NCBI GenBank assembly: GCA_937951645.1
Contig: CALFBM010000083.1
Span: forward strand, 1-36,406
DNA from: an uncultured Rhizobiaceae group bacterium
Lineage (GTDB): Bacteria; Pseudomonadota; Alphaproteobacteria; Rhizobiales; Rhizobiaceae
Reading direction: 5' to 3'
DNA length: 36,406 bases
A model generated the notes under the pieces. It worked only from the letters and a program-made list of their open reading frames with translations. It did no database searches and was not told the origin of the DNA. This document shows, in pieces, positions 18,023 through 21,114 of the stretch; the first letter of the stretch is position 1; the number at the start of each line of letters is the position of its first letter. Position numbers and translations under genes: made by a program.

Positions 18023-18289
18023 ATGGCTAATACACCATCCGCGAAAAAGGCAGTTCGTAAGATTGCAGCTCGCACAGAAGTTAATAAAGCGCGTCGCTCA
18101 CGCATGCGTACATTCATCCGCAAGGTTGAAGAAGCAATTGCAGGTGGCGACAAGGATGCTGCAAATGCAGCTCTAAAAGCAGCTCAGCCAGAAATCATGC
18201 GCTCTGTAACCAAAGGCGTCATGAAAAAGAATACAGCAGCTCGTAAGGTATCCCGCCTTTCTGCAAGTGTGAAGAAAATTGGCGCATAA
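18023..18289 (+). CDS. rpsT: 30S ribosomal protein S20
   Basis: [39 protein letters not shown]...[18 protein letters not shown]. Confidence 0.97.
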
Positions 18290-18310
18290 GTTTTTCGCAT
18301 ATTAAATTGC

Positions 18311-18338
18311 AAACCCGGCCTTTGAGCCGGGTTTTTTT
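18311..18338 (+). terminator. Rho-independent terminator after rpsT
   Basis: AAACCCGGC-CTTTGA-GCCGGGTTTTTTT. Confidence 0.9.
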
Positions 18339-18500
18339 ATGCGTGGACTAAATTTTAACCAGAAAAAAGTCTCAATAATTGCACCATCATAAAAAGTTTA
18401 TATAAAACAACGGGAAATATTATAAGTAGAAATAATGCATATAAAACAAATAGTTATTGGGTAGTTGAAAAAACGCTTCTAAATTTCTACTCAAAAATGC

Positions 18501-18663
18501 GAGTCAATAGACTCAATGGGGAATTTTTTTTCAAAGCCCAGAAATCAGCCATTTCCACGAGTCTTTCAAAAGAAGACCATTGATTCGTAAATGATTCTCG
18601 CCACGAATTACGTAAATGTTTTTTAAAAAAAATCTCAAAAATGAATGGTTAATAAAGCTTTAA
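18501..18663. promoter_or_regulatory. Cluster of five GANTC sites plus one TTAA-N7-TTAA (CtrA-type) box in the AT-rich region upstream of dnaA
   Basis: GANTC at 18501, 18510, 18559, 18582, 18593; TTAATAAAGCTTTAA at 18649-18663. Confidence 0.55.
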
Positions 18664-18986
18664 AGAAAATCAGTTGCACGAGCAGTTTTCGTTCAGTAAC
18701 TTCGAACTCGAAAGACAAGAGGGGTTGGCTCTCCAGGCTTTAAACTAAAAAAAATATAAGCTATTGGAATGCCAAATATGTTTAGTTTTTTAGAAGCTGC
18801 TTTTATGTAGCTATCTGTTGGTTGGCAGGAATGTAAGGCTCATATGCTTTTGTTTCTGTTGACGCTTTGAGCTAGATAATGTTGTCGTTCAATCGGGGTT
18901 CCCCGGGTCCAATTTGGACACATTAAGTTATTTGTTTGATTTATTGCGCTGATGTTAGCCACTTCAGCGAATGGAGAAGGTTTGTC

Positions 18987-19403
18987 ATGTCGTACGCCGG
19001 GGATGTCAGTTGCAAAGAGTGTTTTTCTGCATTGCAGCAAAATAAAAACTCTCAACTGATTGACGTGCGTACAATGCCTGAGTGGATTTTTGTCGGAGTT
19101 CCAAATCTAGATGATATTGGCAAACGAGTGCATACAGTGGATTGGCAACAATTTCCTTCGATGCAGATTAATGCCGGTTTTGTAAGTGCCATTGAATCTA
19201 TTGTCGACGATAAAAGCGCTGAACTTTATTGTTTGTGCCGTTCAGGTGTTCGTAGCATTGCGGCAGCACAAGCATTAACATCTGAAGGGTTCACAAAAGC
19301 GTTTAACGTGCTTTCGGGCTTTGAGGGGGATCATAATCATGAGGGTAAGCGGGGAACCGTTTCGGGGTGGAAATTTGATGGACTGCCCTGGATACAGAAG
19401 TAA
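18987..19403 (+). CDS. Rhodanese-like domain protein
   Basis: LIDVRTMPEWIFVGVPNL... and active-site loop LYCLCRSGVRSIAAAQAL. Start at ATG 18987 (MSYAGDV) preferred to 18936. Confidence 0.92.
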   Translation: MSYAGDVSCKECFSALQQNKNSQLIDVRTMPEWIFVGVPNLDDIGKRVHTVDWQQFPSMQINAGFVSAIESIVDDKSAELYCLCRSGVRSIAAAQALTSEGFTKAFNVLSGFEGDHNHEGKRGTVSGWKFDGLPWIQK

Positions 19404-19485
19404 AAGAGCGAGGCAAGTTTCAAAAAATATTTGGTAAACTGAAAATACTGTAAAAAATTAATTTTAAAAGAGGTTATGAGCGGCA

Positions 19486-21114
19486 ATGAACCAGGCAAAT
19501 AAAGCAGATTACTATAATGAGAAAAAAGACAGTTGGTCGAAAATATCTGGTCCTGATCTAGCTAAAATGAATTTTAAGATACAAGATGAACCAAAAATTG
19601 AAGAGCAGGGAATATCTTCAACTATAACAGGAGAAGGGAAATACTCAGTGGGGGAAAGTAAGAAAAAAGGTGCGGCTAAGTCACCTGAACAGCAATGGGA
19701 CAGAATTAGAAAAAAACTCCAAATCAAATTGGGTAAGGACATATTTGATAGTTGGTTTGGCCGTTTGAAAATATATTGTATTGAGGGCGGCGTTGCCTCT
19801 CACAGTGTGCCAACAGCATTTTTAAAAAGCTGGATTTTGTCAAAATACCGCGATGTTCTGCTCGAGCTTTGGCAAGAAGAGGATAAGTCCATTCTGAGAG
19901 TAGATGTTGCAATCAGAAAACCAACAGTTCACCCACTTGCAACGGAAGAAGCTGCGGCAAAAGCAGAGGCAAGCAAAAAGAAGTCTGGCGAAACAAGTCC
20001 TAATGCAATGCTTCCGTTACGTGCTTTTGGAGCGCGCAACACATCACGCGGAATGGAACAGGCTTCAGGTTTTTCTGGTTCTCCACTCGACACAAAACAT
20101 ACATTTGAATCGTTCATTGAAGGCGGTTCAAACCGCATGGTACATGCTGCTGCACGCACAATCGCAGATGATATTACGGCTTCACATTTCAATCCGCTTA
20201 TTATTCATGCGGGTGTTGGCTTGGGAAAAACTCATATTCTGCAAGCGATTGCCTGTCGTGCCAGAAATCGCAATCCAAAAGCACGTGTTTTATATCTAAC
20301 GGCTGAGTATTTCATGTGGCGTTTTGCTTCTGCAATTCGCGATAAAACTGCGTTGACGCTAAAAGAGTCTCTCCGCGATATAGATATTCTTTTAATTGAC
20401 GATTTGCAGTTCCTTCAAGGTCAGGCTATCCAGGCTGAGTTCTGCCACTTGTTGAACGAGCTGATTGACAGTGCTCGTCAGGTTGTTGTTGCAGCAGACA
20501 GGCCGCCAAGTGAATTGGAAAGCCTTGATGAACGTGTTCGCTCTCGATTAAGAGGTGGTGTAACTTTGGAAATGAAGGCACCTGATTATGAAACACGCAA
20601 AGAAATTTTAAACATCCGCTACAAGGAAGCAAAGGCCGAGCAGCCTAATCTCAATATTCCAGAGGATATTTTGCATTATGTGGCTCGCCAGGTTTCTTCA
20701 AGTGGCCGCGACGTTGAAGGCGCTTTCAACCAACTATTAATCCAGCATCAATTTTCCGAAGGCAGTATGAGCATGGAAGAGCTGGATAAAATTTTATCTC
20801 ATTTGATCAAGTCTGCTGATACAAAACGTGTACGCATAGAAGACATTCAAAAAATCGTTGCTCGCCAGTTTAACGTTAGCAAAAACGATCTTTTATCCAA
20901 TCGTCGAACACGCGTTATTGTGCGCCCAAGACAGATTGCCATGTATCTTGCCAAGGTAATGACACCGCGGTCCTTGCCAGAAATCGGTAGGCGGTTTGGT
21001 GGTCGTGATCATACGACAGTTCTTCATGCGGTGCGCAAGATTGAAGCCATGACTTCTGATGACCAAAAGCTGGCTCATGAAGTGGAATTATTAAAACGTC
21101 TTATTCTTGAGTAG
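19486..21114 (+). CDS. dnaA: Chromosomal replication initiator protein DnaA
   Basis: HAGVGLGKTHILQAIA (Walker A), ILLIDDLQFLQG (Walker B), C-terminal GGRDHTTVLHAVRKIE. Confidence 0.98.
   Translation: MNQANKADYYNEKKDSWSKISGPDLAKMNFKIQDEPKIEEQGISSTITGEGKYSVGESKKKGAAKSPEQQWDRIRKKLQIKLGKDIFDSWFGRLKIYCIEGGVASHSVPTAFLKSWILSKYRDVLLELWQEEDKSILRVDVAIRKPTVHPLATEEAAAKAEASKKKSGETSPNAMLPLRAFGARNTSRGMEQASGFSGSPLDTKHTFESFIEGGSNRMVHAAARTIADDITASHFNPLIIHAGVGLGKTHILQAIACRARNRNPKARVLYLTAEYFMWRFASAIRDKTALTLKESLRDIDILLIDDLQFLQGQAIQAEFCHLLNELIDSARQVVVAADRPPSELESLDERVRSRLRGGVTLEMKAPDYETRKEILNIRYKEAKAEQPNLNIPEDILHYVARQVSSSGRDVEGAFNQLLIQHQFSEGSMSMEELDKILSHLIKSADTKRVRIEDIQKIVARQFNVSKNDLLSNRRTRVIVRPRQIAMYLAKVMTPRSLPEIGRRFGGRDHTTVLHAVRKIEAMTSDDQKLAHEVELLKRLILE

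Follow-up and report, generated by a model that had tools for sequence, protein, structure and literature searches.

A conserved cluster of CcrM sites in a probable dnaA control region of Rhizobiaceae

The interval upstream of dnaA in an uncultured Rhizobiaceae group bacterium holds what is probably (at roughly 70%) a conserved control region of dnaA, or of a rhodanese-domain gene together with dnaA, at positions 18490-18710 of the window, the 36,406-nucleotide stretch of DNA (contig CALFBM010000083.1) that was analyzed as a whole. In it, sites for the CcrM methylase (GANTC) overlap a candidate activator site, a CtrA box supplies a predicted CtrA input, and methylation and NtrX would act together on transcription. 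That this is a real, selected dnaA control region is held with high confidence. The first-pass annotation, made from the letters of the sequence, had proposed a cell-cycle control region that was possibly origin-related; the conserved GANTC sites and CtrA box upstream of (rhodanese-)dnaA uphold the first part of that proposal, and the link to an origin falls away. The features of the region are as follows.

18023-18289, plus strand: rpsT (ribosomal protein S20), the upstream neighbor; Pfam Ribosomal_S20p, 98 bits
18311-18334, plus strand: rpsT terminator hairpin, then a T run, from a terminator-like scan; stem and T run aligned in 10 of 10 genus sequences
18501-18505, no strand: GANTC site 1, GAGTC, overlapping the word GTCAA; a GANTC here in some genus sequences only
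18510-18514, no strand: GANTC site 2, GACTC, lineage-specific and unconserved in the genus alignment
18559-18563, no strand: GANTC site 3, GAGTC, lineage-specific
18573-18596, plus strand: core AA-N5-TTGANTC-NN-AA-N4-TT (AAGACCATTGATTCGTAAATGATT), a candidate activator site (NtrX?) around a CcrM site
18582-18586, no strand: GANTC site 4, GATTC, a conserved CcrM site at the center of the core
18593-18597, no strand: GANTC site 5, GATTC, 11 bp (one helical turn) past site 4
18649-18663, no strand: CtrA box TTAATAAAGCTTTAA (TTAA-N7-TTAA), in 8 of 10 genus sequences
18674-18702, plus strand: putative sigma-70-type promoter, TTGCAC - 17 bp - TAACTT, proposed from the genus alignment
18936-19403, plus strand: rhodanese-domain gene (TTG at 18936, ATG at 18988); Pfam Rhodanese, 32 bits
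19486-21114, plus strand: dnaA, the presumed target; Pfam DnaA_N, Bac_DnaA and Bac_DnaA_C

The terminator behind rpsT sets the control region apart from that gene, and the gap that follows, from the rpsT end at 18289 to the rhodanese start at 18936 or 18988, has the size of about 650 bp first given for it. This genus and some other genera carry the rhodanese gene between rpsT and dnaA, and most Mesorhizobium- and Rhizobium-like loci lack it; the gene is the first after the putative promoter and is likely co-transcribed with dnaA. Among named relatives, the DnaA protein is closest to those of Hyphomicrobiales/Rhizobiaceae metagenome genomes, with 90% identity at best. Eleven genomes in the kinship list belong to the same genus, and the genus alignment comprises ten sequences. 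No Rfam match was found in the rpsT-dnaA gap at E 0.1, and a small RNA or riboswitch there was rejected on that ground.

GANTC is under-represented genome-wide in CcrM-bearing Alphaproteobacteria and enriched between genes (PMC3973325). In the window, 52 sites were observed and 111.7 were expected from dinucleotide shuffles. A 556-kb genome sample gave a density of 1.42 per kb, that is, one site per ~700 bp rather than the one per ~256 bp that had been assumed. The five sites occupy 97 bp (18501-18597) with the CtrA box at 18649-18663, just where they had first been placed, and five GANTC in 97 bp is far outside chance. The sample consisted of 40 sampled stretches, the window and two cluster-bearing contigs (gcrA and ybjN), and is partly non-blind because these two were picked after a triplet search had flagged them; it contained only three clusters of at least five GANTC in 100 bp, located upstream of dnaA, in the gcrA promoter and in the ybjN promoter. 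Tight GANTC triplets occur at 17 places in the whole genome, the same three clusters being the densest. The density scan that had been suggested as a check thus turned up few clusters to match this one.

For comparison across the family, the rpsT-dnaA gap was taken from 95 loci, and removal of near-identical ones left 74. These 74 gaps contain 292 GANTC sites versus 143 expected from dinucleotide-preserving shuffles of the gaps (z 13.8, a value that overstates independence because the loci share descent), and at least three GANTC fall within 110 bp in 41 of the 74, versus 4.5 expected. The sounder part of the test is the comparison with control palindromes within the same sequences: among 15 of the form XYNY'X', the next highest z was 5.5, and none showed a comparable excess of clusters. 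Conservation in relatives, another check proposed at the outset, is borne out both by this GANTC excess and by the positions that are kept. Some members of the family share a second site like site 5, at +10/+11 from the central GANTC; as for a helical phasing of the sites in general, it is clear for such 10/11-bp pairs only.

Other elements at the upstream edge of the cluster were considered as well. The inverted repeat GAGTC-AATA-GACTC formed by sites 1 and 2 was rejected as a functional hairpin, being unconserved; the closest relative already has GAGTCAATAGGCTC. The word GTCAA (window 18503-18507) is kept in 10 of 10 genus sequences some 70-80 bp before the core, even where it lies outside any GANTC, and often appears as GAGTCAAG followed by a T/A-rich stretch. 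A minus-strand promoter at this GTCAA/TTGAC word was also rejected, since by-eye inspection of several relatives revealed no consistent -10.

The core has a fixed architecture. Of the 74 gaps, 54 contain the string TTGANTC-NN-AA, and the five control palindromes tried in this frame give counts of 0-3; around the string, AA stands at -7/-6 (96% and 89%) and TT at +15/+16 (98% and 94%). In a search with a frame that is agnostic to GANTC (AA-N5-TT-N7-AA-N4-TT), 44 of 75 matches held GA[AT]TC and the rest were scattered, and the same search of 386 kb of control DNA yielded no GANTC-containing match. In the genome as a whole the full core pattern turns up just 3 times. Beyond the family, 4 of 20 regions upstream of dnaA in other families of the Rhizobiales have the core, with TTGAGTC or TTGAATC; N therefore varies, and GA and TC stay. 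Two loci of the same genus (L104 and L105) have lost the core GANTC (TGATTTT) and show just a degenerate sequence where the CtrA box is otherwise found, so that both the core and a perfect box are missing, which counts against the reading as dnaA control. This sublineage is a natural contrast for function.

The position of the core may explain how it could be overlooked. The distance from the core to the dnaA start is roughly 550-680 bp in Ensifer-like genomes, beyond the reach of a 400-bp search. In one earlier comparative survey a promoter was taken to be the 400 bp ahead of a gene together with 100 bp of that gene (PMC2877005); another used the 125 bp in front of transcripts (PMC8725594).

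A candidate for the factor that would use the core comes from Sinorhizobium meliloti, where, according to the passages on dnaA in PMC9223101, the nitrogen regulator NtrX activates dnaA and NtrX~P binds in vitro to synthetic dnaA-promoter probes with CAAAACCCTTG; mutating CAA and TTG abolishes that binding in vitro. When 398 family genomes were searched with CAAAACCCTTGATTC, 13 of them, from two genera, had a site, and each had exactly one. Twelve of those loci were fetched, and dnaA lies downstream in 11 of 12 and rpsT upstream in 11 of 12, with at least one of the two in all. In the 13 genomes the left half of the core is CAAAACCCTTG, with ATTC directly after it; the TTG of this string runs into GATTC, and the methylatable adenine therefore adjoins an NtrX half-site demonstrated in S. 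meliloti. The connection to the S. meliloti site consists of matching sequence in genomes of two genera, S. meliloti 1021 lying outside the set. The dnaA passages of the S. meliloti work leave the adjoining GANTC and its methylation unmentioned, and a literature search found no paper joining NtrX to CcrM sites, which is no proof that none exists; the three papers found to mention CcrM, GANTC and NtrX together deal, judging by title and abstract, with other topics. The NtrX motif is CAA-N2-5-TTG; exact CAA-N5-TTG occurs in 10 of 54 cores, and AA-N5-TTG in most. Unlike the S. meliloti site, the window has GAAGACCATTG (GAA-N5-TTG), in which the C of the motif is missing, and this counts against the dnaA-control reading. 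NtrX is a plausible factor for the core.

By itself a single CtrA box is unremarkable, as 2 perfect TTAA-N7-TTAA were found in the window versus 1.28 expected; it is significant because its position is conserved. Among the 74 gaps, 12 contain a perfect TTAA-N7-TTAA, versus 0-3 for spacers of 3-6 and 8-12, and in the 11 loci with both elements nearby the box lies 67-72 bp past the GANTC of the core (67-70 bp in the genus). The 12 loci belong mostly to this genus and to Pseudochrobactrum-like genomes, a narrow spread that counts against the dnaA-control reading. The case for a CtrA input in this genus is good, with binding predicted.

Beginning 10 bp after the CtrA box is the promoter-like pair at 18674-18702, from which a start near 18709 is predicted; a transcript starting there would span the rhodanese gene and dnaA. 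The aligned hexamers in relatives read TTGCGC-N17-TAAATT and TTGAAC-N17-TATCGT. A consensus promoter scan left the pair uncalled, and the match to consensus is therefore weak; these hexamers, too, weigh against the dnaA-control reading, and the promoter is best treated as putative.

The genome encodes the regulators that the mechanism would need. Both ccrM and ctrA, on which the first-pass annotation relied, are encoded, the CcrM orthologue (L005:1153-2310) scoring 620 bits to NF050803, under the curated cutoff of 830, with RAMA (66 bits) and N6_N4_Mtase (233 bits) domains. CtrA (L011:1069-1770) scores 423 bits to NF045991 (cutoff 350), and NtrX (L224:1453-2847) 722 bits to NF051870 (cutoff 600). 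GcrA is encoded as well; like CcrM it falls under its curated NCBIfam cutoff, but both are near full-length model matches.

In the mechanism proposed here, CcrM would methylate the cluster, and once the replication fork has passed, it would stay hemimethylated until a new, late-cycle round of CcrM activity. How the core is bound by its factor would depend on this methylation state; NtrX~P is the best candidate for the factor, and GcrA, or a direct effect on sigma-70, the alternatives. CtrA~P, bound beside the -35, would modulate the promoter. Under methylation-sensitive NtrX and CtrA control of this kind, dnaA transcription would be linked both with replication and, by way of NtrX, with nutrition. 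Confidence that methylation gates dnaA is moderate. A more specific proposal is tentative: that the core is a previously undescribed dnaA element in which an NtrX~P site is fused to a CcrM site, so that hemimethylation gates nutrient-driven transcription. Such an element would be widespread in Rhizobiaceae and present in other Rhizobiales families, where the core is also found. The main text of the A. tumefaciens CcrM-depletion paper leaves dnaA out of the affected genes, which counts against dnaA control.

It is possible, but rather unlikely, that the core simply binds NtrX, or some other activator of the helix-turn-helix type, and happens to hold a GANTC, with methylation irrelevant to its function. 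Such a site would account for AA/TT flanks whose invariance comes close to that of the GANTC, and the in vitro binding of NtrX~P reported with synthetic probes in PMC9223101 is in keeping with it. The excess of GANTC, however, reaches past the core to variable flanking sites, often at +10/11 or +65/66. At the GANTC located 10 bp ahead of the core (GATTCgtg, GAGTCtga, GAATCtcc, GACTCggc), moreover, GA and TC are constant and N and the flanks vary.

Similarly doubtful is the suggestion that GcrA and sigma-70 read the methylated GANTC directly, as at Caulobacter GcrA promoters, with NtrX uninvolved. The encoded GcrA fits this explanation, as do 4 of the 5 window sites that match YGAKTCK, the extended Caulobacter GcrA motif as given in PMC8725594, versus ~1/5 of GANTC in the genome sample. 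Across the family, however, the fraction of gap sites fitting YGAKTCK is 0.19, equal to that in the genome sample, and half of the cores are TTGAATC, which is outside the motif; in the absence of family-wide enrichment, YGAKTCK was rejected as the cause of the conservation. Haakonsen (2015) reportedly placed GcrA-dependent sites at the promoter itself, and the present cluster precedes the predicted start by ~110-210 bp.

That the cluster is a replication origin or part of one (an oriC beside dnaA) is very improbable. The GC skew of the window does turn positive near 17-18 kb, and the AT-rich gap adjoins dnaA. Against this, two same-genus relatives with long contigs have their cumulative GC-skew minimum at or near hemE: in G003, hemE lies at 535 kb, the minimum at 537 kb and dnaA at 753 kb, and in G007 the respective positions are 100, 111 and 260 kb, which places the minimum 2 kb and 12 kb from hemE, and dnaA ~150-220 kb from the minimum. 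In addition, the region 18290-19490 has no DnaA box TTATCCACA with up to one mismatch. On these results the origin reading was rejected, and the "possibly origin-related" clause of the first annotation is unsupported; gene orientation probably explains the local change of skew sign better. Least credible is a chance cluster in an AT-rich gap: GANTC is indeed better tolerated between genes than in coding DNA (PMC3973325), but in shuffled gaps of the same dinucleotide content the sites fall to half and the clusters to a tenth, and GANTC positions are conserved.

Control of dnaA by methylation was known before from Caulobacter, and the dnaA control region described here would be a variant of that kind. 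As in Caulobacter crescentus (PMC3973325, PMC2877005), where transcription of dnaA responds to methylation of its promoter (PMC3973325), GANTC is found in the dnaA promoter of an organism with a CcrM orthologue, and dnaA transcription is presumably coupled to fork passage. Unlike the Caulobacter arrangement, the cluster in the window is dense and lies ~900-1000 bp upstream of dnaA with the rhodanese gene between; an activator-like element of fixed layout encloses it, and a CtrA box is close by.

The clustering also resembles that of GATC sites for Dam and SeqA at oriC and dnaA of E. coli, in that methylase sites are gathered at the initiator gene; it differs in the methylase and motif, and in that no origin is located at this cluster. 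To our knowledge, no SeqA analogue exists for GANTC.

A closer parallel in the same family is the A. tumefaciens gcrA promoter, where 250 bp hold six GANTC and methylation represses gcrA (PMC11514494). Both cases have several GANTC in one promoter; the gene and the spacing of sites differ, and none of the 30 gcrA promoters examined contains the dnaA core motif. The gcrA promoter of the present genome (L016:9104-9202, contig C121) contains five GANTC in 99 bp, at near-constant positions within the genus. Across 30 genomes gcrA promoters hold 150 GANTC versus 40 expected, most having 4-7, which parallels the A. tumefaciens case (PMC11514494). The densest cluster of all, eight GANTC in 124 bp, lies at L015:8860-8983 (contig C134), upstream of a YbjN-family gene (PF10722) that is followed by proC; it is conserved in the 27 genomes examined (142 GANTC versus 36 expected) and has no Rfam match. 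The gene for the EcpR1 sRNA was rejected as the cause of this cluster, its published locus being between divK-pleD and rpmG (PMC4414408).

Transcriptional control of dnaA in Rhizobiales is poorly understood. The short conserved element described here opens the meeting of methylation, CtrA and nitrogen signaling at dnaA to testing by point changes.
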